64,000 bases of DNA from Fervidobacterium pennivorans. Lineage in GTDB: Bacteria > Thermotogota > Thermotogae > Thermotogales > Fervidobacteriaceae. Below, piece after piece: positions 1,121 to 50,945 of this stretch. How positions within the stretch are numbered: position 1 is the stretch's first letter; each line of letters starts with the position of its first letter. A program made the position numbers and the translations under genes. The stretch is taken from positions 62,001-126,000 of the forward strand of contig NZ_CP011393.1 in NCBI RefSeq assembly GCF_001644665.1, written 5' to 3'. The notes beneath the pieces are model-generated. The model saw only the letters and a program-made list of their open reading frames with translations. It did no database searches and was not told the DNA's origin.

Positions 1121-2116
1121 TTATTTTATTTTACCTTCATGCACTAAATAACAAGCAACGTAGTGACCAGGTGCAACTTCTTTTAATTCTGGGTGTGGAT
1201 CCGTTTTACATCTGTCAACTCTAAATGGACATCTGTCATAGAATCTGCATATTGGTGGTGGGTCAATTGGTGCACTTATATTTCCAATGATATTCGGCTC
1301 ATTCCTTTTGTATTCTGGGTCTGGCACAGGAACAGCGTCCATTAAAGCTCGTGTGTATGGGTGCATAGGATGATGTAATAATTCTTCAGTTTCGGCAAGT
1401 TCGACAATCTTTCCAAGGTACATAACCGCTATCCTGTTAACCATGTATCTTGCAACCGCAAGGTCGTGTGTTATGTATAGGTAACTCATTCCATGAATTT
1501 GTTGTAATTCCATCATTAGCTCCATAACTGCTGTTCTGACAGAAACATCCAACATCGATGTTGGTTCGTCTGCGACGATGAGTTTAGGATTCAAAACGAG
1601 TGCCCTTGCGATAGCAACTCTTTGTCTTTGACCACCGGAAAGTTCATGAGGATATCTCCACAAAAAGCTGTCAGGTGGTGTAAGACCAACTTCCTGGAGT
1701 AGTTGTGAGACTTTCTCTTCTCTGTCTTCAAGTGTTCCAACGTTATGTATATTTAGTGGTTCTGCTATTATGTCGAATATAGTCATCCTTGGGTTTAGAG
1801 ATTCGTATGGGTCTTGGAATATCATTTGAACCATCGCATGGTATTCCATCCGTTCATATTCATCGATGTTTTTGCCAAGTACTTTTATCGTCCCATCCGT
1901 TGGTGTTTCCAATCTTACAACCATCCTACCAGTCGTTGTTTTTCCACAACCAGATTCACCAACAAGTCCCAGCGACTCGCCTTCCAAAATTTCGAACGAT
2001 ACGTCATCTACTGCATGGACAAAATGTTTTGCCCTGGAAAAGAGTGCTCTTTCGGCCGGAAAGTATTTCTTCAAATTCTTTATTTCAAGTAGTACATTTT
2101 TATTTTCTAAACGCAT
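1121..2116 (-). CDS. oppF: Oligopeptide/dipeptide ABC transporter ATPase, OppF type
   Basis: This is the second ATP-hydrolysing subunit of an Opp/Dpp-family importer, on the cytoplasmic face of the membrane. The Walker A GESGCGKT lies at about residues 53-60, the Q-loop at 101, the signature LSGGQRQR from 159, and Walker B LIVADEP at 179-185. The C-terminal OppD/F extension has the typical cysteine-rich CRFYDRCPF segment, which in some relatives binds an iron-sulfur cluster. Length (331 aa) is normal for the family. The start overlaps the end of oppD by 17 bases, indicating translational coupling. It is the last gene of the operon, followed by a strong terminator. The substrate cannot be told from the ATPase. 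Confidence 0.93.
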   Translation of the reverse strand: MRLENKNVLLEIKNLKKYFPAERALFSRAKHFVHAVDDVSFEILEGESLGLVGESGCGKTTTGRMVVRLETPTDGTIKVLGKNIDEYERMEYHAMVQMIFQDPYESLNPRMTIFDIIAEPLNIHNVGTLEDREEKVSQLLQEVGLTPPDSFLWRYPHELSGGQRQRVAIARALVLNPKLIVADEPTSMLDVSVRTAVMELMMELQQIHGMSYLYITHDLAVARYMVNRIAVMYLGKIVELAETEELLHHPMHPYTRALMDAVPVPDPEYKRNEPNIIGNISAPIDPPPICRFYDRCPFRVDRCKTDPHPELKEVAPGHYVACYLVHEGKIK

Positions 2117-3101
2117 CTCTTCTCACCTCTTCAGTCAGTGGGTGCCAGCATGCTACATAGTGTCCTTTTTCAACCTCTTTGTATTCCGGCTCATCGGTTC
2201 GGCACTTATCCGTTGCCCATGGACATCTTGGTGCGAATCGACATCCTGTAGGCGGATTGAGCAAGTTTGGTGGCTCTCCAGGTATTGTAAATAGCTTTTT
2301 CTTCTCACCAACGTGGCTCGGGAATGCATTCATAAGCAAGAACGTGTACGGATGCATCGGACGTTTGAAGACAGTTGTTGCATCTGCTTGTTCAACAAAC
2401 TTTCCTGCATACATTACAGCAATTTTATCGCTTACTTCTGCAATAACTGCAATATCATGAGAAATGTAAATCATCGCCATGTTCAGTTCTTTTTGAATTT
2501 TCTTCAATTCTCGTAATATCTTGTCCTGAACGATAACATCCAAAGCTGTTGTTGGTTCGTCTGCAATTATAACCTTGGGGTTACAAGATAGCGACAGTGC
2601 GATAACTGCCCTTTGTTTCATACCACCACTGTATTGGTGAGGGTATTGGTCCATACGTTTTGGGTCGAGCGTTACTAATTCAAAAAGCTTTGCAACTTTC
2701 GCTCTTGCTTCGTCGATAGGCGTATCTGGATAGTGGTTGAGTATAGCTTCAACGATTTGGTCACCGACTCTGTACACTGGGTTTAGCGAATTCATTGCAG
2801 CTTGGAAAACCATTGAAATACCTTTCCATCTATAGTGGCGCATTTCTTCTTCTGATAAGCTAACGAGGTCGACCATCTTTCCATTATCATTGAACCATAC
2901 ATGTCCACCCTTAAATTCTGCGTTTTCTGGTAGTATCCTTAACAATGTCATTGAAACTGACGTTTTACCACAACCAGATTCACCGACTATACCTAGACTT
3001 TCTCCGGCTTCTAACTCAAACGATATCCCATCAACGGCTTTTACATAGCCCATTTTTGTTTTGTAATGCATCTTTAAGTCTTCAACTTTCAACACTGCCA
3101 C
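2100..3101 (-). CDS. oppD: Oligopeptide/dipeptide ABC transporter ATPase, OppD type
   Basis: Partner ATPase of OppF. Walker A GESGCGKT lies at about residues 40-47; the signature is YSGGMKQR, followed by Walker B IIADEP. A C-terminal extension has CRFAPRCPW, as in OppF. A GTG start at 3101 is preferred because AGAGGTGA lies five bases before it. A GTG at 3110 would overlap the oppC stop as GTGA but places its ribosome site too close. The 333-residue length is normal. It sits between oppC and oppF and overlaps both or nearly so, as expected for stoichiometric subunits. Confidence 0.92.
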   Translation of the reverse strand: MAVLKVEDLKMHYKTKMGYVKAVDGISFELEAGESLGIVGESGCGKTSVSMTLLRILPENAEFKGGHVWFNDNGKMVDLVSLSEEEMRHYRWKGISMVFQAAMNSLNPVYRVGDQIVEAILNHYPDTPIDEARAKVAKLFELVTLDPKRMDQYPHQYSGGMKQRAVIALSLSCNPKVIIADEPTTALDVIVQDKILRELKKIQKELNMAMIYISHDIAVIAEVSDKIAVMYAGKFVEQADATTVFKRPMHPYTFLLMNAFPSHVGEKKKLFTIPGEPPNLLNPPTGCRFAPRCPWATDKCRTDEPEYKEVEKGHYVACWHPLTEEVRRDAFRK

Positions 3102-3106
3102 AACAA

Positions 3107-5593
3107 TCACCTCTTTCTAAGTCTTGGGTTGACTATTTCTTCAAGTCCCCTACCGAGGAAGTAGAAGGCAGAACAAAGAAGCGTGATAGCTCCACCGGCT
3201 GGAACCCACATCCACCAGTAAGCGCCGATGTTACCAGAGCCAAGGTAACCAGAACTCCAAACAGTATTTATCATCAATCCCCAAGACATCCTTACTTTCA
3301 TTAGTCCAAAGAAGCTAAGAACCGCTTCTGAAAAGACTGCACCTGTGACATTGAACATCATATACAGGAACGAAAGAGGCATGACATTCGGAATTATGTG
3401 GTTAAATATGATGTACCCATGGCTACCTCCCGAAACTCTCGCTGCATCTATGTAAGGTTTGACCTTAATTGTAAGTGCTTGAGCTTTCAAAACAAGCGTA
3501 ATGCCTCCAAAACCACCGAGTAAACCAAGTATGACTGCAAGCTTAAATAGATTCATCGTCATGAAACCAGAGAGGACTATCAAGAACGCTGTTGATGGGA
3601 AGAGCATCATTAAGTCGGCTATGCGCATGAATATAACATCAACAACTCCGCCATAGTAAGCTGCCGCAGTACCAATTATCGTACCAATTACAACCGTAAT
3701 GAGTGCTGCGAGCACACCAAGAACAAATTCACTTGGAGTACTTACCATTAGTTGCACCAATGTATCCCTTCCAACAGGGTCCGTTCCGAGCCAATGCCAT
3801 CTGTTTGGTGGAAGCGGATGAGCAACACCAATTTTATTGGTAATAGACAGCCTATTGAATAACTCAACAAGCTTTGTCTCAGCAAATTTCTTATCCCACT
3901 CTACTTTTTTTGGTTGCATTTTTGCAACCGTTTCAGAAGAAATCTTGTCCCAAAGAGTGGTGTCCTCAAGATGCATCTTATGTTCTTCTATCATCCTCAG
4001 GTATATTTCTTCGTTGATATCTCCTTGACCAATCAAAAAGTTCACTGCTTCAATAGGCTCTTTATTTTCGTAGTTTTTCAGTTTTTCGACTATATCTAAC
4101 CGTTTGAAATCATCCAGCTGTGAATTCTCTATGTTGGAAATAACTTTTTGTAGTTTGTTCGTTCCTCCAAAGGCGTAGCCCATAAGAGATGTAACTGGGT
4201 CAGATAATACCTTTACAACCTGACTACCAAGTGTTTCGTAACTCTCAGGAACATTAGTATCGTTCAGAAGTAGTGCCATCATTGACCTTGCCATGGCTAT
4301 ATCTTTGAATATTTTGTTCAACTCATAGACATATGATTTATGAGTTTCTTCGGAGTATTTTCTTATACCATTCTCAAGTTTCGCTCTTGTCTCGGGACCG
4401 ATATCAACAGAAACTTTTGCTAGTTCAAAACCAGCGTATGCTTCCAAAAATTTTTCCACATCCTTGTAAGAAACTTCAACGCCAGCTTCCTTCATTTCTT
4501 CTTCGATTGTTGTAAGCGTTGCTTTAGCCTTTTTCAAAGCAGGTTCAAGTATTTCTTTTCTTGAAAGATCAGAAAGCTTACCCTTTGCAATGTCTACAAG
4601 ATGCTTAAATCTGGATGCGTTTAGTTTTTCGGTTATTTCTTTATCTTCGTATCCTACTACTAACAGTTCCTGAATCAACGGAAAAACGGCTGCGTTAACC
4701 AAATCGGAAACACCAACAATTTCGTTGTTTACTATTTCTGAAAATTGTGAATCCGAACTTACAAAAAGCTGTTGTCCAGTGCTTTCGGATACCAAAGACC
4801 TTGCAACTTCCAGCACTTTATTTTCAGCTTCCTCAATTTGCTCTTGTGGATACTCGGTAGATAATTTTGCATTGAAATCATCAATAACTTCGGGTCTATC
4901 TCTGTTCAAACTTCTGAACCAAAGTATTACTCTTGAGACCTCATCCGAATCTTTGTAAGGAGACAAAGCAACCGCCAAGGTTGTGTAATCAATTTTTTGG
5001 AGTAACTCTGAGAAGTTCTGGAACGAGAATTTTTCCCTGTTTCCTATGTCTTTAACACTAACTATGGCAGAGAATTTAATTATACCTTTCTCAACGAGCT
5101 CCGAAATACTATTTTGGAAATACATTCTCTCTTTAGCAGGAATGTAACTATCAGCTATCGTATCAAGTAAGTGTCTAAGAGCATCTGGAGCGTAAGTGGT
5201 CATAATTTCGTATTGTGAGTTTCTCACTAAGTTCTCCATTGATTCCTTAAAAGCTTCTCCTTTATCCATAAATGAATATACCCAAATTTGTGCTGTTGGA
5301 ATTTCGATTCCCTTGACCAAGTTTTGAGTTGATAAATAGTCCGTAATGTACTTGCTGGAAAGTATCCTTGAATCAAGACCTGTGACGGGATCATAGATGT
5401 TCGGGTCAAGTATGTTGAGGACAACAGGAGATAGCGCTCCAAATATACCAAAGGCTATGATAACCCAAAGTCCAAACATTCCCATCTTGCTTTCTCTAAA
5501 GAGCGCCCAGTTCTTTTTGAAATTTTTGATAAAAAGCTTGAATTTTATCTTCAGTATTGATTCTTTCAATTCTGTGTTTTTAGTTTGTGCCAT
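3107..5593 (-). CDS. oppC: Opp-type ABC permease (OppC) with a giant extracytoplasmic insertion
   Basis: The C-terminal ~237 residues (from about 592) are a normal OppC permease core: the HWLGTDPVGRD motif, five membrane segments and the ATPase-contacting EAA loop (YIDAARVSGGS...HIIPNVMP). The N-terminus has the usual first membrane segment (about 38-60). Between them, where family members have roughly 40 residues, there are about 525 mostly helical, charged residues (about 65-590). By topology these lie outside the membrane. Total 828 aa against about 300 usual. The reading frame is intact and base use is like the neighbours, so the insert is probably genuine. The insert matches no domain I recognise; it may contact the binding protein or the cell wall/toga. 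It sits between oppB and oppD. Confidence 0.88.
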   Translation of the reverse strand: MAQTKNTELKESILKIKFKLFIKNFKKNWALFRESKMGMFGLWVIIAFGIFGALSPVVLNILDPNIYDPVTGLDSRILSSKYITDYLSTQNLVKGIEIPTAQIWVYSFMDKGEAFKESMENLVRNSQYEIMTTYAPDALRHLLDTIADSYIPAKERMYFQNSISELVEKGIIKFSAIVSVKDIGNREKFSFQNFSELLQKIDYTTLAVALSPYKDSDEVSRVILWFRSLNRDRPEVIDDFNAKLSTEYPQEQIEEAENKVLEVARSLVSESTGQQLFVSSDSQFSEIVNNEIVGVSDLVNAAVFPLIQELLVVGYEDKEITEKLNASRFKHLVDIAKGKLSDLSRKEILEPALKKAKATLTTIEEEMKEAGVEVSYKDVEKFLEAYAGFELAKVSVDIGPETRAKLENGIRKYSEETHKSYVYELNKIFKDIAMARSMMALLLNDTNVPESYETLGSQVVKVLSDPVTSLMGYAFGGTNKLQKVISNIENSQLDDFKRLDIVEKLKNYENKEPIEAVNFLIGQGDINEEIYLRMIEEHKMHLEDTTLWDKISSETVAKMQPKKVEWDKKFAETKLVELFNRLSITNKIGVAHPLPPNRWHWLGTDPVGRDTLVQLMVSTPSEFVLGVLAALITVVIGTIIGTAAAYYGGVVDVIFMRIADLMMLFPSTAFLIVLSGFMTMNLFKLAVILGLLGGFGGITLVLKAQALTIKVKPYIDAARVSGGSHGYIIFNHIIPNVMPLSFLYMMFNVTGAVFSEAVLSFFGLMKVRMSWGLMINTVWSSGYLGSGNIGAYWWMWVPAGGAITLLCSAFYFLGRGLEEIVNPRLRKR

Positions 5594-5608: not shown

Positions 5609-6995
5609 TCAGTATCTGATTCTTGGGTCTAAGAATGCGTAAAGTATATCAGCAACCAGGTGGGCGACAAGTACTAAAACACCCGTAAAAACCAGACACC
5701 CAATAGCTAATGGTGTATCCTGAGAGGTTGTTGCGTCAAGAAGTGTAAGTCCCATACCTTTCCACGAGAACATCGTTTCTGTGATGACTCCTCCACTTAC
5801 CGTGGAAGCAAGACCTATAACAAAGCTGGTCATTAAAGGAAGCAAAGCGGTTCTTGCAGCATGTTTATCTCGTATAACCTTATCAGGAAGTCCCTTTGCT
5901 CTGGCTGTCGTAATGTAATCTTCTTTAATTACCTCAAGCATGGTATCACGCATAACAAGCATATCTCCTGCAAAGTGTAATGTCACAAGTGCAATGACGG
6001 GGAGTGCAAGATGGTAAATTATATCAAGAGCATAGCTCCCCATTTTGTTGGTACTCCAGTACATGATTGAAAGAACAACACCTGCTATAACAAACGACCA
6101 GGCGGCTATCTTCTTAGCCTTTATCGTTTTTAACTTCGACGCTAATACAATACCGATAATCCACATGACAAGCAAAAAGAATTCCGTCCACAATAACCTT
6201 ATGAACACATCCTGTGCACTAAAAGGAGCGTTAAACCACTTGGCAGGCGTAACAAAACCAGATAGCGGGAACCACTTTAATGTAACCGCAAAGAGCCATA
6301 TAAGGATAAGCATGTAGAATGGAGTGAATATCGTCCAAAAGACAATTCCCACAAATGTAGCTGCCTTATCTATTAATCCTCCCCTTCTCCATGCAATTCT
6401 TTTCCCAAGGTCAAAGCCAAGAAGGAACGAAAGAACAGAGCTTGCGAGGAACAAGAATAAAGTTCTCGGTAATCTTTCAGCGATGATTTCTTCAACTTTC
6501 CTAGGATATTCACTGAATGATATACCCATCTCCAAGTTAAAGAAATTTCTCATGTGTTTGTAATACTTAACATACCACGGATCGTCCACACCAAAGAGTT
6601 TTTTCATTCTTTCATACATTTCAGGGTTTCTCATCAACTTCGGATCCAAAAATTTCGTGGTATAGTCACCTGGCATGGCTAAGAAGATAAAGAAGACAAC
6701 GGTTACATAGATTATAAGCAAAAGGACAATCTGAGCAGTCCTGTTCCTGATGAACTTGGCAAGTCCAGGCAAGTCAAAACCGTAGAAGTATATTATTGGT
6801 GCAATGATGAAATTAAATCTTGGACTGAACAAGTAAAGGTATTCCACATTGAAAAGAGCACCATAGTACAACGCAAGTGAGATTGCAAGGAATATGTAAT
6901 TTGTAATTAATAGGTCTCTTGCCTTTCCTGAGGGAAAAATAGATACCTACCAAAGGTACCACGAGTGCGTATAAAATCAGTTCCCAACTTCTCAT
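5609..6995 (-). CDS. oppB: Opp-type ABC permease (OppB), with apparent +1 frameshift near its start
   Basis: From 6871 down to 5609 there is an open frame with an OppB permease core: a membrane segment around LLLIIYVTVVFFIF, the AMPGDYT motif, an EAA-type loop (DYITTARAKGLPDKVIRDKH) and a DPRIRY end. No ribosome site precedes the internal TTG at 6871. A good GGGAGAGG site precedes an ATG at 6995, whose frame begins MRSWELILYALVV and meets the permease frame if one T is skipped in the TTTTTCCC run (plus-strand 6932-6939). The joined protein is 461 aa with two or three extra N-terminal membrane segments. The shift could be a sequencing error, a real mutation, or slippage. It lies between oppA and oppC. 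Confidence 0.8.
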
Positions 6996-7088
6996 CTTCA
7001 CCTCTCCCTTTAATCAGTTTGGACACTTTTATATGATTTGGGAAGTTTTTTCTGCAAGTTTTGAATTTCTCAAGCGCCTCATTTAATA

Positions 7089-7151: not shown

Positions 7152-8966
7152 TCACTGAACCCTCCTTACACCTTCTGGGAATCCGAAGTAACCCTGGATA
7201 CCATCAAGCATATTGTCAAATGGGAATTTGATTGATGTTCTGTAGGCTTCTATCATTGGATTAGTGAAGAGGATTATGTATGGCAGATCTTCTGCAAGTA
7301 TCTTTTGTGCTTCGAATATAGCTTTCCTTGCTTGTTCAAACGTATCTGCATATTCGAATTCTTCAACAATTGCATCAAATTCTGGGTTGTTGTAACCTGG
7401 TGTGTTGAATCCATCTGGTGCCATTTCTTTACTGTGCCAGAATGACCTGAAGTATGTTGGCACCCTTCCGATACCCCAACCAAGTATGTACATGTCGAAG
7501 TCAACTTCATCAAATGCTTTCGTAACAATTTCGTTGAAGTCTGTGAGCTTCAAGTTAAGTGGTATACCGATGTTCTTTGCCCATTGTTCGATGTACATTG
7601 CTGTCTGTGCTCTCATTGGGTCGTAGTCCATACCCGGTGAAAGGAGTGTAAGTGTTGGTACTGGCTTTCCGTCTGGACCTTTCAAACCTTTACCAGGTGT
7701 CTTAACTGGGTTCTTTGCATCTTTTGGATCGATAACTGGTTCTGTATCCCATTTGAATCCTGCTTTCTTGAGCAAGCTGACTGCAAGTTGATACCTTTCA
7801 CCCATGCTGAGTCCTTCTCCGATGGTCTTAACAGCAGAGTTGTACCAGAAACTATTTGCTGGTGGTACTGGTGTTGCAAGTGGAATTGCTCTTCCTTGGA
7901 GCACTTGGTTACAAATGAAATCGCGGTCGATAAGTGCAGCTATAGCTTGCCTGAATTCCTTAACATTCATTGGGAACTTTCTCATATTGAATGCAAGGTA
8001 TCTGAATCCAAGTTGTGGGTTGGAAACTATCTTTATATCCTTTTGACCTTTGAGTTGTTCAGTCTCACCAGCGGTAAGTCCAACTGGGTTGTAAATATAG
8101 TCAATATCGCCAGCGATGAGAGCCTGGATAGCAACCTGTTTGTTACCGAATACCTTGTAAACAATTGTGTCTACAAATGGTCCATTCTCCACTTGAAGTG
8201 TGACAGGTTGTTTTGTGTCTCCAGTTGACCATTTGAAACCTGTTTTTGGGTTAACAATTGAGAACCCGCCACCTTTGTAGTAAATGTTCTTTTCACCGTA
8301 TGCCCAGTATTTGTCATTTGGAACTTGTTTTACAACTTGCACGAACGCACCTTTTTCAATCTTTCCAAGGTTGAGTGCCGTAATACCAGGGTCAATAACT
8401 TCTTGTGAAAGTAGCCATTTTACTGGGTCTTTTTGTTTCTTTGCTTTTTCTACTATTGGTTTCCAGTAGTTGCTGCATACGATAGCGGTCATGAGTGTGT
8501 CGTAGTAAATCGTCATCGTCTTCTTTTCTTTGAAGTAGAACTTCACTGTCCAAGTATCAATCTTTTCGACTTTTTCTGGTTCGTAAGCTCCACCCCAGTT
8601 ACCACCAGGTATTTCCATACCTTTTACAGTTGTGTAGGTGAAAACAACATCATCTGCTGTGAACGGAGCACCGTTTGACCAGCGCATATCTTTTCTGAGT
8701 TTTACTGTTACTGTGTACATGTTTCCTTCTTTTTCAATTTTAGGAATTTCTGCAGCTGCAGATGGAATGAGAGTACCGTCTTTGTTCATGCCAAGCAAGG
8801 AAGGATATTTCCACAACTGAACAACAAAGTTCCAAGAAGATGAACCTGAGCCGAGCAAGTTCCAGATGTTCGTTGTCGTAACATCAGAGAAGATACCGTA
8901 GTTAACCTGTACAGCGAAAATGGACAGTGCAACAAGCACCAAAAGTCCCACAAAAACTTTTTTCAC
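7152..8966 (-). CDS. oppA: Extracellular solute-binding protein, family 5 (OppA type)
   Basis: Secreted binding protein that captures the substrate for the OppBCDF importer. The start is taken as GTG at 8966, six bases after GGAGGGG; this gives MKKVFVGLLVLVALSIFA, a clean signal peptide, and 604 aa. The body matches family 5: the strand pattern RKDMRWSNGAPFTADDVVFT early on, LAFNMRKFPMNVKEFRQAIAA in the middle and QKILAEDLPYIILF near the end. Family members in Thermotogota bind peptides or oligosaccharides, so the ligand is open. It is the first gene of the operon, has its own strong promoter, and is followed by a hairpin. Confidence 0.93.
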   Translation of the reverse strand: MKKVFVGLLVLVALSIFAVQVNYGIFSDVTTTNIWNLLGSGSSSWNFVVQLWKYPSLLGMNKDGTLIPSAAAEIPKIEKEGNMYTVTVKLRKDMRWSNGAPFTADDVVFTYTTVKGMEIPGGNWGGAYEPEKVEKIDTWTVKFYFKEKKTMTIYYDTLMTAIVCSNYWKPIVEKAKKQKDPVKWLLSQEVIDPGITALNLGKIEKGAFVQVVKQVPNDKYWAYGEKNIYYKGGGFSIVNPKTGFKWSTGDTKQPVTLQVENGPFVDTIVYKVFGNKQVAIQALIAGDIDYIYNPVGLTAGETEQLKGQKDIKIVSNPQLGFRYLAFNMRKFPMNVKEFRQAIAALIDRDFICNQVLQGRAIPLATPVPPANSFWYNSAVKTIGEGLSMGERYQLAVSLLKKAGFKWDTEPVIDPKDAKNPVKTPGKGLKGPDGKPVPTLTLLSPGMDYDPMRAQTAMYIEQWAKNIGIPLNLKLTDFNEIVTKAFDEVDFDMYILGWGIGRVPTYFRSFWHSKEMAPDGFNTPGYNNPEFDAIVEEFEYADTFEQARKAIFEAQKILAEDLPYIILFTNPMIEAYRTSIKFPFDNMLDGIQGYFGFPEGVRRVQ

Positions 8967-9070
8967 AGCCAACCCCTCCTTTTATTGTGGTGTGGGAAGC
9001 CCCCCTATTTTTCTCATGAACAATTAAATTTAATGCACAAGAGCCTATCACCTTTACAATTTTCGTATTA

Positions 9071-44981: not shown

Positions 44982-45692
44982 TTACAATCCGAGGTAGGCT
45001 TTCTTTACTTGTTCGTTCTTTAGTAAGTCTTTTGCGGGTCCCTCAAGAACGATATTACCAGTTTCTAAGACGTATCCGTAGTGCGATATGTTCAATGCAC
45101 CGACGGCGTTTTGTTCCACAAGTAGTATAGTAATTCCTTCGGAATTGAGTTTTTTGATAATCTCAAAAACTTCTTCGACGAGTATTGGAGCAAGACCAAG
45201 TGATGGTTCATCCATCATGAGGACTTTTGGTCTACTCATTAGAGCTCTCGAAATTGCAAGCATTTGTTGCTCGCCACCAGAAAGTGTTCCGCCAAGCTGA
45301 TTTTTCCTCTCAGCCAATCTTGGAAAGAGTGTAAATACCCACTCGAGGTCTTGTTTTATTCCATCCTTGTCTTTTCTATTGAAAGCACCCATCATTAAGT
45401 TTTCCATAACCGTTAGGTTAGGGAATATCCTTCTTCCTTCCGGAACAAGGCAAACTCCCATCCTGTTAATTTGGTGTGGAGGCAGGTTTTGAATATCCTT
45501 CCCGTCGAACAATATTCTTCCCCTTTTTGGTTTTACCAAACCCGCTATTGTGGAAAGTGTAGTTGTCTTTCCAGCACCGTTGGCACCAATAAGAGTTACT
45601 ACCTGTCCTTTCTCTACCTTAAAAGAAATACCTTTAATAGCATGTATTGCGCCGTAGAATACGTGGAGTCCCTCAACTTCAAGCACCGGCAT
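44982..45692 (-). CDS. livF: Branched-chain amino acid ABC transporter ATPase LivF
   Basis: Cytoplasmic ATPase of the HAAT-family importer. Walker A GANGAGKT (about 33-40), signature LSGGEQQMLAISRALM, Walker B LMMDEPSLGLAP; the short C-terminus YVLETGNIVLEGPAKDLL is typical of LivF. 236 aa, normal. Overlaps livG by 14 bases. Last gene before the terminator. Confidence 0.94.
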   Translation of the reverse strand: MPVLEVEGLHVFYGAIHAIKGISFKVEKGQVVTLIGANGAGKTTTLSTIAGLVKPKRGRILFDGKDIQNLPPHQINRMGVCLVPEGRRIFPNLTVMENLMMGAFNRKDKDGIKQDLEWVFTLFPRLAERKNQLGGTLSGGEQQMLAISRALMSRPKVLMMDEPSLGLAPILVEEVFEIIKKLNSEGITILLVEQNAVGALNISHYGYVLETGNIVLEGPAKDLLKNEQVKKAYLGL

Positions 45693-46560
45693 GTTCCCAC
45701 TCCTTACCTAAGTAAGCTTCTATAACTCTCGGGTTTCTGCTTATCTCTTCCGGTGTGCCTTCTGCGATAATCTTTCCAGAATCCATAACTATTATCCTTT
45801 CACAAACGCCCATAACAACCTTCATATCGTGCTCAATGAGTATCACTGTAAGCTTAAACTCATCCCTGATGTATCTGATGAATTCCATCAATTCCTCTGA
45901 TTCCTTTGGGTTCATACCTGCTGCGGGCTCATCCAAAAGCAACAATTTTGGTTCCGTAGCCAATGCTCTTGCGATTTCAAGTTTTCTTTGTTGACCATAC
46001 GGAAGTGATGAAGCAAGTTCGTATGCCAAATGGTCAAGTCCAACCTTTCTCAAAAGTTCCATACCTTTTTCTCGCATTTCCATCTCTTTCTTTTTGTATC
46101 CTATTTTCGTTACAGCACGCCAGAACCAGAGATGTCCTTTTATCTTCGGCGGTTTACCATGGTTTCTGAGAATCTTATCCGCATCCCTTGTAGAGAGTAG
46201 ATGATGCATCGCTACAAGCACGTTATCAAGAACAGTTAATGTTCCAAAGAGCCTGATATTTTGGAATGTTCTTGCTATTCCAAGGTGCGTGATTTGATGC
46301 GGTCTGTACGGCGTAATGTCTATATCGTCAAAGATTATCCTACCCTTTGTTGGATAGTAAATTCCTGTGATAACATTGAACGCTGTTGTCTTACCAGCAC
46401 CGTTTGGACCTATAATTCCCAGAATCTCACCTTCATAAGCGACGTTATTAAAATCATCTACTGCAGTTAGACCTCCAAATTGCATTGTGACATGGTCCAT
46501 TTTAAGAATTACTCGTTTGTTTTTGACGTTATTTGGTTTATCTTGGACTACATTGCTCAT
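45679..46560 (-). CDS. livG: Branched-chain amino acid ABC transporter ATPase LivG
   Basis: Second ATPase. Walker A GPNGAGKT, LivG-type insertion with IARTFQNIRLFGTLTVLDNVLVA, signature LPYGQQRKLEIARAL (a variant of LSGGQ, as usual for LivG), Walker B LLLLDEPAAGMNP. 293 aa with a longer mid-insert (about 115-165) containing basic residues. Overlaps livM as ATGA. Confidence 0.94.
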   Translation of the reverse strand: MSNVVQDKPNNVKNKRVILKMDHVTMQFGGLTAVDDFNNVAYEGEILGIIGPNGAGKTTAFNVITGIYYPTKGRIIFDDIDITPYRPHQITHLGIARTFQNIRLFGTLTVLDNVLVAMHHLLSTRDADKILRNHGKPPKIKGHLWFWRAVTKIGYKKKEMEMREKGMELLRKVGLDHLAYELASSLPYGQQRKLEIARALATEPKLLLLDEPAAGMNPKESEELMEFIRYIRDEFKLTVILIEHDMKVVMGVCERIIVMDSGKIIAEGTPEEISRNPRVIEAYLGKEWEHAGA

Positions 46561-47624
46561 TTTTCACCACTCCTTCTCAAGCCAATTCGCTTGAAGAAGT
46601 TGATTATTCCTTCCCAAGTGAGTTCGCTTCTTCCAAAAATTCCCCTCTTCCACACAATCATTGTGACAACAAATAGCACAGACAACACCAGCATCCTCAT
46701 ACCTTGGATTGCTGGAAATTGTTTTCCAAAGAATGTAAATGGTTGCTCGAAAGCTCTAAGCCATTCCATCAGGAATGCAAAGATTATCGCACCAACAACC
46801 GAGCCACTTATGCTTCCAAGTCCACCAAGAACAACCATGATGAGTACATAGTAAGTAAGTATTGGTCCAAACGTTGTTATCCTTGGGTCGATTGTTGTAA
46901 GCCAGTGTGCGTAAAGCGCACCACTGACACCAGCAAAAAAGCCACTTATCACAAAAGACAAAAGTGTATGTTTAAAAACATTGATACCCATCGCCTCAGC
47001 AGCGATAGAATTATCTCGTATCGCCAAGAGTGCACGACCATACGAACTCTTTACAAGGCTAACAATAAAAACTATCGTGACAAAGAGCCAGCCCCAGCTC
47101 CACCAAATGTTTGTGTAATTCGGCAATCCTTTCAACCCAAGTGAACCATTCGTAATGGACTGTAAGTTAAGTGCGAGAATTCTAAGCACTTCAGAAAAAC
47201 CAAGTGAAGCTATCGCAAGATAATCACCTGAAAGCCTCAGAACCGGGAAACCTATGATAAACGCACCAAATGCTGCAACCAAACCTGCAATTATTGTTGC
47301 AGTTAAAAAGTCCGTGTGTAAATTTGCAATCAAAGGACTTGGCGGGGCTATAATGAATATCATCGCTTTCTGGTCTGGCGGTATCGTCAAAAGTGCCGAT
47401 GTATACGCCCCAAGCAATATGAAACCTGCATGACCAAGCGAGAATACACCGGTAATTCCATTGACAAGATTCAAACTCACCGCCATTATCCCGTATATTG
47501 CCATCAAAGAAAGAACTTGCTTTTTGTATGAATCAAACTTCGCATCAGCAACTGCCAGCAGAATGATAACAACTATTAGGAATAGAATTGTTAGACCTAA
47601 GTCTCTTTTTGTCTTGCTCTTCAT
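46557..47624 (-). CDS. livM: Branched-chain amino acid ABC transporter permease LivM
   Basis: Membrane subunit with about nine hydrophobic segments. Family landmarks: SLNLVNGITGVFSLGHAGFILLGAY, SLGFSEVLRI, LLAIRDNSIAAEAMGINVFKHTLLSFVISGFFAGVSGAL and VLGGLGSISGSVVGAI. 355 aa from an ATG at 47624, after GGTGGGAG. Base order livH-M-G-F is standard. Confidence 0.93.
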   Translation of the reverse strand: MKSKTKRDLGLTILFLIVVIILLAVADAKFDSYKKQVLSLMAIYGIMAVSLNLVNGITGVFSLGHAGFILLGAYTSALLTIPPDQKAMIFIIAPPSPLIANLHTDFLTATIIAGLVAAFGAFIIGFPVLRLSGDYLAIASLGFSEVLRILALNLQSITNGSLGLKGLPNYTNIWWSWGWLFVTIVFIVSLVKSSYGRALLAIRDNSIAAEAMGINVFKHTLLSFVISGFFAGVSGALYAHWLTTIDPRITTFGPILTYYVLIMVVLGGLGSISGSVVGAIIFAFLMEWLRAFEQPFTFFGKQFPAIQGMRMLVLSVLFVVTMIVWKRGIFGRSELTWEGIINFFKRIGLRRSGEK

Positions 47625-47645
47625 CGCTCCCACCCCAACTTCAGC

Positions 47646-48557
47646 TTAAACTTTCTCCACAGCGCGTTTGCCAAGAAGACCTGCTGGCCTTACAAGAAGA
47701 ATCAGTATAAGGATAATAAAAGCAAAAGCGTCTTTGTATTGCATAAGCGTTGGGAAAAACGTTATTATCATCATTTCTATAACACCAAGCAAAATACCAC
47801 CAAGCACTGCACCACCAATCGAACCAATTCCACCAAGAACTGCCGCTATGAACGCCTTCAACCCAGGCACAAAACCTGTGTAAGGATAAAAGCTCGGATA
47901 CCTTAATGCCCACATAACTCCTGCAAGAGCAGCAAGTGCAGAAGAAATGGCAAATGTGAAACCTATTACGTTATCCACGTTCACACCCATCAAAGATGTT
48001 GTTGGTATGTCAGCCGCTATTGCTCTCATAGCCATTCCAATTTTCGTTCTGTAAACAATTAAAAAGAGCACAAAAAGTGCAACTGCTGTTATTCCAAGTA
48101 TTATGAAAATAATCTTCGGCAGATACACATTGCCAATAACAAACGACTCAAACGCTATTGTTTTATTCTGCAAAGCCTCCAAGAATGCTTTGTAATTGGG
48201 ACCGAAAAACACCACAGCAAAGCTCTCAATAAAGAAAGAAACACCTATTGCCGTTATCAGCGCGGAAATCCTAGGCGAATTTCTAAGAGGTTTATAGGCT
48301 AGCCTGTCAATCAACACCCCTAGGACAGCCGTCACTCCAAGCGAGATAATCACAGCCAACGGAAAGCTCAGCCTTATCAAAGTAGCACCATAATAGGCAA
48401 AGTAAATACCCATAACCATAATGTCACCAAAAGCAAAGTTGATTAACCTCAATATACCATAGACCATCGTATAACCGACAGCGATAAGGGCGTACAGTCC
48501 ACCAACCATAAGCCCGTTAAACAAATTCTGAACAAAAATCGTCAGGTTTATAGTCAA
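47646..48557 (-). CDS. livH: Branched-chain amino acid ABC transporter permease LivH
   Basis: Membrane subunit of the HAAT importer. Landmarks: NGLMVGGLYALIAVGYTMVYGILRLINFAFGDI at the N-terminus, PLRNSPRISALITAIGVSFFIES, AIAADIPTTSLMGVNVDNVIGFTFAISSALAALAG and the loop AVLGGIGSIGGAVLGG. 303 aa from a TTG at 48557, six bases after AGGTG; the GTG at 48566 overlaps the ribosome site. Confidence 0.92.
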   Translation of the reverse strand: MTINLTIFVQNLFNGLMVGGLYALIAVGYTMVYGILRLINFAFGDIMVMGIYFAYYGATLIRLSFPLAVIISLGVTAVLGVLIDRLAYKPLRNSPRISALITAIGVSFFIESFAVVFFGPNYKAFLEALQNKTIAFESFVIGNVYLPKIIFIILGITAVALFVLFLIVYRTKIGMAMRAIAADIPTTSLMGVNVDNVIGFTFAISSALAALAGVMWALRYPSFYPYTGFVPGLKAFIAAVLGGIGSIGGAVLGGILLGVIEMMIITFFPTLMQYKDAFAFIILILILLVRPAGLLGKRAVEKV

Positions 48558-48594
48558 TACAGGCACCTCCCCATCTCAAGCTAAACAAAGAAAG

Positions 48595-48632: not shown

Positions 48633-49745
48633 TTATTGCAAATCCTTGGGCTCTATTCTTGTTTCGTATCTAAATTGTCCGTTTTGGACTTTGACTATTA
48701 TCACGTCTTTTATTGGGTTTCCGTTAGCATCTATAGTAATAGTTCCACTAACACCCTGGAAGCCTTTTGTGGACCTGATAGCTTCGTTTATCTTCACTGG
48801 ATCCTTTGATTTTGCTCGTTCAATTGCATCAACTATAAGCATATATGCGTCATACCCAAGTGCGGCATTCATGGCTGGTAGCATTCCGTATTTCTTTTTG
48901 AACGCTTCAACAAAATCTTTTGATATTTTGGTATTTGCCGCTTCTGGGACGTAATGCGTTGTGAAGTAGAGCCCCTCAACCGCTTTTCCGCCTATTTTAA
49001 CTAGTTCAGGAGCATCTGCACCATCACCAGCCAGGATGTAACCCTTGAACCCCATAGAGCGAGCCTGTTGCGCAATTAAAGCTATTTCATTGTAAAAACC
49101 AGGAATCACGATAGCATCGCTTCCAAAAGCAATTGCTTGTGCAATTTGAGCACTAAATTCCTGGTCTCCTGATTTATATTGAACCTTCTGAACTTGACCT
49201 TTGTATTTCTTCTCGAAGCGTTCAACAAAATAATTCGTCATAGATACGCTGTAGTCTTGTTCGATATCAATAAATATTGTCACCTTTTTGACCTTAAGAT
49301 TCTTCCCTGCAAATTCTGCCAATGCGGTTCCTTGGAACGGGTCAATAAAGCAAACCCTTGAAACAAATTTCTTTCCCTGAGTGACAAGTGGACTTGTTGA
49401 TGTAACCGCAACTTGTGGAACTTTCCTAGCTTCTGCTATTTCCGCGGCAGCTATCGAGTTGCTGCTGGAAATTTCACCTATGACTGCGACAACTTTTTCT
49501 TTGTCTATAAGCCGTGCCATAGCATTTGCTGCTTCTGTTTTTTCGCTTCTTGTATCAACATAAACAAGCACTATCTTTTCACCTAACACTGTCTTTTTCT
49601 GTTCATATGCAAGTTCAATACCTTTCTTCGTCCAATCTCCAAAAGCAGAAAGCCCACCTGTCATAGGTAGGAGCACACCAATCTTAATATCAGCAAAGAT
49701 ACTGAGGGTAAGCAGGAGAAGCAAGATACTAAGAGTTTTCCTCAC
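48633..49745 (-). CDS. livJ: Branched-chain amino acid-binding protein, copy 1
   Basis: Periplasmic binding-protein-like fold I receptor for the Liv importer. Signal peptide MRKTLSILLLLLTLSIFA, then IKIGVLLPMTGGLSAFGDW (ligand-binding first strand), VAVIGEISSSNSIAAAEIAE, VPQVAVTSTSPLVTQ, and AALGYDAYMLIVDAIE. 370 aa. Strong resemblance to the upstream copy 2 along its whole length shows a tandem duplication. Hairpins flank the gene on both sides. Confidence 0.92.
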   Translation of the reverse strand: MRKTLSILLLLLTLSIFADIKIGVLLPMTGGLSAFGDWTKKGIELAYEQKKTVLGEKIVLVYVDTRSEKTEAANAMARLIDKEKVVAVIGEISSSNSIAAAEIAEARKVPQVAVTSTSPLVTQGKKFVSRVCFIDPFQGTALAEFAGKNLKVKKVTIFIDIEQDYSVSMTNYFVERFEKKYKGQVQKVQYKSGDQEFSAQIAQAIAFGSDAIVIPGFYNEIALIAQQARSMGFKGYILAGDGADAPELVKIGGKAVEGLYFTTHYVPEAANTKISKDFVEAFKKKYGMLPAMNAALGYDAYMLIVDAIERAKSKDPVKINEAIRSTKGFQGVSGTITIDANGNPIKDVIIVKVQNGQFRYETRIEPKDLQ

Positions 49746-49785
49746 ACTACAACACCTCCTGTTTAGTTTTTTTGTGTTTCGTTTA

Positions 49786-49810
49786 AAAGTGGGGGATTTG
49801 CCCCCACTTT
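49786..49810 (-). terminator. Hairpin between livJ2 and livJ1
   Basis: AAAGTGGGGG / CCCCCACTTT, 10-bp stem with a five-base loop, followed on the minus strand by TTTTAAAC. Partial terminator or mRNA-stabilising stem. Confidence 0.75.
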
Positions 49811-49823
49811 ATCAAACAAAGAT

Positions 49824-50945
49824 TTATTTCAAATCACTTGCCGAAATCTTTGCCGCAAATGCAAATTGCTGGTTCTTAACTGTTAGAATTACTACATCTT
49901 TTGTTGGATTACCTGTGTTTGGATCTATCGAAATCACACCAGTAGCGCCTTGGAAGTTTTTAATTGACCTGATAGCAGTAGCTATCAATTCTGGCTTTGT
50001 CGTCTTCGCTCTTTCAATTGCCTCAACAATAAGCATGTATGCATCGTATCCAAGAGCTGAAAGTGTCGATGGTTTGACACCGTATTTCTTTACAAATGCC
50101 TCAACGAACTTCTTTGAAACCTGTGTTACAGGTGCATCTGGGTGGTAGTGGTCTGAGAAGTATATACCTTCAACAGCTCGCCCTCCGATTTTGATAAGCT
50201 CAGGTGCGTCAGCTCCATCTCCAGCCAGGATGTAACCTTTGAAACCAAGTGACCTTGCTTGTTGTGCTACAAGAGCTATTTCATTGTAATAACCTGTAAC
50301 AACTATTGCTTCACTACCAAACGCGAGTGCTTGTGAAAGTTGTGCACTGAACTCTTGGTCACCAGATTTGTATTGAACTTGAAGCACTTGTCCACCGTAT
50401 TTCTTAAACCTTTCAATGAAATAGTTCGAAAGTCCAACACTGTAATCTTGTTCCACATCAGTGAATACTGTCGCTTTTTTTATCTTCAGCGTCTTAACAG
50501 CAAATTCTGCAAGTGCAGTTCCCTGAAGTGGGTCGATGAAACAGACTCTTGAAACGAATTTCTTACCTTGAGTGACTAGCGGGTTTGTTGATGATGGACT
50601 AACCATAGGAACTTTCTTCTTTTCTGCAATCTCACCTGCTGCAATTGAATTACCACTGATAACTTCACCAATTACTGCTATGACTCCTTCTTTGTCAATC
50701 AATCTCGCAATACCGTTTGCAGCTTCCGTTTTTTCACTGCGTGTGTCCATGTACACAACTTCAATCTTTTGACCAAGAACTGTTCCTTTCTCTTCGTGCG
50801 CAAGTTCTATGCCTTTTTTCACCAAATCGCCAAACGCAGAAACACCACCAGTAAGAGGCAAAAGTGCACCTATCTTAATGACGCCGAATATACTCAGCGA
50901 ACTGAGTAAAAGTGCAATCACTAAAAGTTTCCCAAAGCTCCTCAT
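49824..50945 (-). CDS. livJ: Branched-chain amino acid-binding protein, copy 2
   Basis: 373-aa paralogue of the next gene with the same architecture: signal peptide (to about residue 19), IKIGALLPLTGGVSAFGDL, VAVIGEVISGNSIAAGEIAE, VPMVSPSSTNPLVTQ and SALGYDAYMLIVEAIE. The binding-site loop differs (SPSSTNP against VTSTSP), so ligand preference may differ. First gene of the liv operon, with the operon promoter about 100 bases upstream and GGGAGGGAG before the ATG. Confidence 0.92.
   Translation of the reverse strand: MRSFGKLLVIALLLSSLSIFGVIKIGALLPLTGGVSAFGDLVKKGIELAHEEKGTVLGQKIEVVYMDTRSEKTEAANGIARLIDKEGVIAVIGEVISGNSIAAGEIAEKKKVPMVSPSSTNPLVTQGKKFVSRVCFIDPLQGTALAEFAVKTLKIKKATVFTDVEQDYSVGLSNYFIERFKKYGGQVLQVQYKSGDQEFSAQLSQALAFGSEAIVVTGYYNEIALVAQQARSLGFKGYILAGDGADAPELIKIGGRAVEGIYFSDHYHPDAPVTQVSKKFVEAFVKKYGVKPSTLSALGYDAYMLIVEAIERAKTTKPELIATAIRSIKNFQGATGVISIDPNTGNPTKDVVILTVKNQQFAFAAKISASDLK

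Follow-up and report, generated by a model that had tools for sequence, protein, structure and literature searches.

Accounts of type I ABC importers usually deal with a minimal core. In the Mal transporter, Daus reportedly found in 2007 that MalE contacts the P2 loop of MalF and the P1 loop of MalG, and MalF-P2 is said to touch the binding protein throughout the cycle (work cited in PMC3150292 and PMC3328499). MalF-P2, found in enteric and Thermotogales MalF, is a folded periplasmic domain inside a type I importer subunit; it comprises ~180 aa between TM3 and TM4 (PMC2246101) and contains beta-sheets (PMC3150292). In the cryo-EM structure of E. coli DppABCDF, the scoop motif between TM1 and TM2 of DppB enters the cleft of DppA (PMC12136057). 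Among the Thermotogales, Noll et al. (2008) described MalG1 and MalG2 proteins with a hydrophilic region of ~500 residues between TM1 and TM2, which resembled no other protein and to which no function could be given (PMC2246101).

Here we describe an OppC-type permease of Fervidobacterium pennivorans in which a block of similar size occupies the same loop. Within the window (the whole 64,000-nucleotide stretch of DNA that was analysed), the gene is a single uninterrupted frame in which 517 extra residues, which we call insert A, lie between a normal TM1 and a normal OppC core (Table 1). The preliminary description had proposed just this, an intact frame with a large insertion in the TM1-TM2 (P1) extracytoplasmic loop, and both points were borne out. 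Like insert A, the DppB scoop lies on the periplasmic side between TM1 and TM2 in a peptide importer of family 5, and in Dpp it engages the binding protein; it differs in being only ~30 residues long and in sitting in the partner subunit, DppB. MalF-P2 shares with insert A the general plan of a folded periplasmic domain within a permease subunit. However, insert A is not a MalF-P2 domain: it lies between TM1 and TM2 rather than TM3 and TM4, is almost three times as long, and is all-alpha by its model, with no matching fold in the PDB.

Table 1. Features of the opp locus; positions are those of the window.
Feature	Position	Strand	Basis
OppC-type permease gene, 828 aa, ATG start	3107..5593	-	ORF; Pfam and NCBIfam matches
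OppC TM1, residues 44-62, amid weak OppC_N match	5408..5464	-	hydropathy; Pfam 19.5 bits
Native motif YDPVTGLD, residues 67-74; upstream edge of insertion point	5372..5395	-	long and short orthologues
Insert A (type A), 517 aa, residues 75-591; by prediction a globular all-alpha domain outside the membrane	3821..5371	-	AlphaFold2
Best-conserved third of the insert, residues 75-200	4994..5371	-	identity to L040 and L041
OppC core of normal type, residues 592-828, starting with HPLPPNRWHWLGTDPVGRD	3110..3820	-	Pfam/NCBIfam
OppB reading frame in its present state, 420 aa, TTG start	5609..6871	-	ORF
Remainder of the N-terminal extension of OppB, with added membrane segments; frame shifted	6872..7001	-	frame open in G068 and G070
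OppA-type binding protein (SBP_bac_5), 606 aa, signal peptide	7152..8972	-	
OppD ATPase	2100..3110	-	
OppF ATPase	1121..2116	-	

The family assignment comes from the C-terminal core. Pfam places the BPD_transp_1 membrane core at residues 637-827 (2.8e-18), and the NCBIfam model Opp4C matches residues 591-824 (5.1e-49). All 14 of the matching NCBIfam OppC-type models, which are 236-341 positions long, are confined to the core, beginning at about residue 584-602. At the N terminus, OppC_N aligns weakly with residues 28-58, under its cut-off of 23.9 bits, and TM1 is clear by hydropathy. None of the named NCBIfam OppC equivalogs (Opp4C, OppC, DppC and others) reaches its curated cut-off, the best being Opp4C with 167 of 350 bits, and on sequence the protein is classed as OppC-type only, with no substrate assigned. 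We conclude that the gene is a genuine OppC to which a block has been added in the P1 loop.

The limits of this block can be read from short orthologues, in which TM1 is followed by the motif Y[DN]PxxG[FYN]D, ~5 further residues and then [HN]PxPPSxxHxLGTDPxGRD. Because the first motif lies at residues 67-74 of the window protein and HPLPP begins at residue 592, the insertion falls directly after the motif. A core starting near residue 592 agrees with the preliminary description; its insert start at residue 65 has to be moved to 75, since the native motif also belongs to the short orthologues. Searches with the isolated insert, which that description had recommended, found it unlike any Pfam, NCBIfam or PDB entry at significance: over residues 75-590 nothing in Pfam exceeded its cut-off and NCBIfam had no matching model, and the best PDB chain by sequence was a coiled-coil protein at E 0.063. 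By sequence there is no ligand-binding, peptidase, wall-binding or membrane-binding domain, and the fold search of the PDB was likewise empty. Neither insert A nor the second insert described below (insert B) contains detectable internal repeats.

An AlphaFold2 model of insert A, built from 16 sequences, has a mean pLDDT of 87.9 and a pTM of 0.83 and consists of ~27 helices, with short strands close to both ends. Foldseek returned no significant match for it in the PDB, and none among the viral folds of BFVD. As modelled, insert A thus appears to be a fold without a PDB counterpart, and it is new in relation to the PDB only. Its dN/dS is ~0.12 (NG86) against G070, the closest informative relative (96% identical overall), a figure that holds for this pair, dS being saturated in remoter ones; by this sequence measure the insert is under purifying selection. 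At the same time it diverges far faster than its neighbours, with a mean -ln identity of 0.98 compared with 0.30 for OppA and 0.16 for the OppC core. The change is uneven along its length: identity to L040 and L041 is 83-84% over residues 75-200 and 54-56% over residues 201-400. We also considered co-evolution of the insert with OppA, as measured by distance correlation. The residual correlations with the insert were 0.87 for the OppB core, 0.72 for OppD and 0.64 for OppA; the signal is therefore non-specific, and we discarded it as a sign of insert-OppA co-evolution.

Our survey covered 103 genomes of the class, and a query at the level of the phylum returned an equal number. Insert A is present in 18 of these 103 Thermotogota genomes, from six genera of two families: f1, which is the Fervidobacterium family, and f11. 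Genus g1 is tied to Fervidobacterium, and we take g3 to include Thermosipho melanesiensis and f2 to be Pseudothermotoga. In each of the 18 genomes the insert occurs once, always in the orthologous OppC of this operon, and no plasmid-borne copies were found. The orthologues in f2, f4, f6 and f8 are ~323-332 aa long, with an ordinary loop of ~40 aa and a core 66-71% identical to that of the window protein; the one in L062 reads 360 aa from an upstream start codon. The survey of OppC lengths suggested in the preliminary description thus yields short forms in these families and long forms in f1, f11 and f3. Neither reading that would have made the insert trivial holds: it does not belong to a misassembled neighbouring gene, being common to 18 genomes, and it is not an ordinary domain of all members, being absent from the orthologues of other families. 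Wherever an f1 or f11 genome encodes the orthologue, the loop is long; the f1 genomes without the insert (genus g4 and G071) have no copy of the orthologue at all, so that we found no case in which the operon was kept and the insert lost. We conclude that insert A was acquired in the common ancestor of f1 and f11.

A second long form of the same permease occurs in family f3 (genera g10, g11 and g14; L054-L058), where OppC is 950-960 aa long. It resembles the window protein in being orthologous, in carrying its insert in the same loop, in the all-alpha prediction for that insert and in its association with extra OppB membrane segments. It differs in that ~640 extra residues stand before the YDPxTGxD motif, which here lies at residues 702-712, 12 residues ahead of NPxPP. 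Inserts A and B are not detectably homologous (hhalign probability 1.9%); an initial MAFFT alignment did pair them across the insert, and the motif positions show this pairing to be wrong. The AlphaFold2 model of insert B, from only five sequences, is almost wholly helical (pLDDT 87.3, pTM 0.76), and Foldseek found nothing significant for it in the PDB, only small helical-bundle pieces. In a tree of OppC core, OppB and OppD, the A forms and the B forms each make up one clade (100/100 in both cases), and B stands nearer to the short f2 and f4 forms (92/100). We rejected a single origin of the two: a one-clade constraint has a p-AU of 5.7e-5, and the inserts lie on opposite sides of the motif without homology. 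Two independent gains are the simplest reading of these sequence data.

The permease gene belongs to an operon of the order oppABC-D-F, which runs on the minus strand from 8972 to 1121. The preliminary description called the operon otherwise standard; this holds for the set of genes, with OppA, OppB, OppD and OppF all beside OppC, but not for OppB, which has a lineage-specific N-terminal extension that is frameshifted here. The extension is out of frame in this strain because of a 7-bp tandem duplication of AATTACA at ~6902-6908, which may be a strain mutation or a sequencing error. OppB measures 383-393 aa in the short operons, ~461-497 aa with insert A and ~525 aa with insert B. In type A operons the addition is a hydrophobic N-terminal extension of 75-100 aa; in type B operons it is an internal hydrophobic insertion of ~140 aa that is absent from type A and from the short forms. 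By simple hydropathy, OppB looks as if it has gained about three membrane helices in type A and about four in type B. Its region equivalent to the DppB scoop is of ordinary length in this operon.

In the PDB, the OppA of this operon is matched best by the oligopeptide binder AppA (1xoc, 1.2e-25). G058, whose operon has the short loop, encodes an OppA of about the same length, with 47% identity to that of the window. In two g14 genomes (L057 and L058), a methyl-accepting chemotaxis-like gene occupies the position that oppA has in their relatives; the OppA orthologue, with 48-49% identity, lies at another place in G097 and G099.

The OppC insertion had been singled out as odd. The architecture is indeed as described, but it is not unique: given the ~500-residue MalG region published in 2008 and other long-loop permeases, it is already known as an oddity of the Thermotogota. 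The same genome encodes a MalG homologue of 803 aa (L141:2947-5358, plus strand) with TM1 at residues 12-30, the next helix at 595 and a helical-looking region of ~560 aa between them. It also encodes another CUT1-type permease of 719 aa (L142:1952-4111, minus strand), with helices at 7-25 and 520 and ~490 intervening residues without a Pfam domain, and an OppC paralogue of 571 aa (L093:3223-4938, plus strand) with a ~200-aa insert in the TM1-TM2 loop. Paralogues of the latter type carry a TM1-TM2 insert of about this size in every Thermotogota family sampled and are enlarged in f3 genera, to ~635 and ~905 aa; in g14 (L098:370-3093 and L104:1141-3849, ~902-907 aa) the enlargement is due to an unrelated stretch. 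Further Thermotogota OppC proteins (L089, L095) measure ~463 aa or bear propeller-like YCF48 repeats, which Pfam detects weakly and under its cut-off; in the 565-aa OppC at L095:1519-3216 (plus strand), the TM1-TM2 loop has such hits to YCF48/PSII_BNR and an HVO_0234-like model. None of the large inserts compared shows detectable homology to insert A, and derivation of insert A from MalG, the 719-aa permease or the OppC paralogues was rejected. Thermotogales MalG is like the window OppC in being a type I importer permease with ~500 aa, unlike known proteins, in the same loop; it differs in serving a sugar (CUT1) transporter and in its insert, which has no detectable homology to insert A (hhalign probability 0.2%). 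Insert A therefore resembles the giant P1 region of MalG functionally at most, and is not a member of its family by sequence. As far as we found in the literature searched, the OppC version, with its two independent origins and its altered OppB, is apparently undescribed.

We propose that insert A serves as an accessory domain for docking or retaining the binding protein, a tentative reading to which we give a probability of roughly 45%. From the topology of the Dpp and Mal transporters, the helical domain would lie above the permease, at the face that receives the binding protein. It could there serve as an accessory platform that holds OppA productively above the translocation pore, doing for OppA what MalG-P1 and MalF-P2 do for MalE. 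The ordinary scoop region of OppB and the OppC core would carry out unchanged transport, and the OppB extension would probably brace the heavier periplasmic part. Consistent with this proposal, insert A is a real, selected domain with a confident fold, is kept or lost together with the operon, sits in the P1 loop right after the native motif, and occurs in lineages in which OppB is altered as well. Against it, orthologues that have the short loop and an OppA about equally long evidently cope without the insert, and the residual correlation with OppA is no higher than that with the OppB core or OppD. The rapid divergence of the insert is also unlike a large conserved interface, only its first third being well conserved.

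The main rival is an envelope scaffold, in which the insert and the extra OppB helices anchor or cluster the transporter in the wide periplasm of the Thermotogota; we consider it rather unlikely, as we do the partners proposed for it (peptidoglycan, the toga, another copy of the insert or some other envelope protein, instead of OppA). It ranks as the main rival on two grounds: the trait is seen again in other transporters, and what OppB acquired was membrane helices, not a new OppA-facing loop. Within this phylum, large inserts are found in several transporters that are unrelated and differ in substrate, which points to the envelope and not to one substrate or binding protein. Yet no wall- or membrane-binding domain is evident by sequence or fold, and no homology is detectable between the inserts of different transporters, even though a partner common to all might be expected to select for the same domain.

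Less probable again is non-adaptive growth, in which a P1 loop tolerant of insertions acquired chance helical filler that was kept once its folding had become entangled. Several unrelated inserts of unlike sizes in the same kind of loop would fit such growth, as would the fast divergence of insert A; the purifying selection and the confident, compact fold do not, nor do the change of OppB in both insert lineages and the lack of any loss while the operon was kept among the f1 and f11 genomes examined. We regard as very improbable a second substrate site, that is, a domain above the pore that itself binds peptides, concentrates them beforehand or acts as a gate for large substrates. Family 5 binding proteins accept large ligands, and AppA is the best PDB match of this OppA, but the insert matches no ligand-binding or peptidase domain and has no cysteines and no recognised catalytic motif. 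The chance that the insert is an artefact or a selfish element (misassembly, fusion error, intein or mobile element) is negligible. Its abrupt boundaries are all that suggests one, and the identical architecture in 18 independent assemblies, complete genomes among them, excludes both misassembly and a chance reading frame. An intein was rejected as well: there is no HINT Pfam domain, the C terminus reads NKIGVA before HPLPP and not His-Asn, and the model is all-alpha.

What makes the case interesting is less its singularity than the repeated appearance of such inserts. We can imagine, as a possibility to be held with some doubt, that the Thermotogota envelope repeatedly selects large TM1-TM2-loop domains, with at least four and probably more unrelated ones (the two all-alpha OppC inserts, that of MalG and that of another sugar permease, the OppC paralogues coming besides) convergent on docking or retention and the partner subunit co-modified. 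Nature here offers one orthologous transporter that is short in some lineages and has been enlarged independently in two others, where the partner subunit is altered too. This natural experiment makes the role of extra periplasmic importer domains testable, a question that dates from the Thermotogales MalG proteins of 2008.

Elsewhere in the window, two adjacent secreted proteins of 370 and 373 aa (48633-50945, minus strand) are alike at their N termini. The pair adjoins an apparent branched-chain amino-acid ABC transporter (44982-48566), and the likeness suggests a tandem duplicate of a binding protein.
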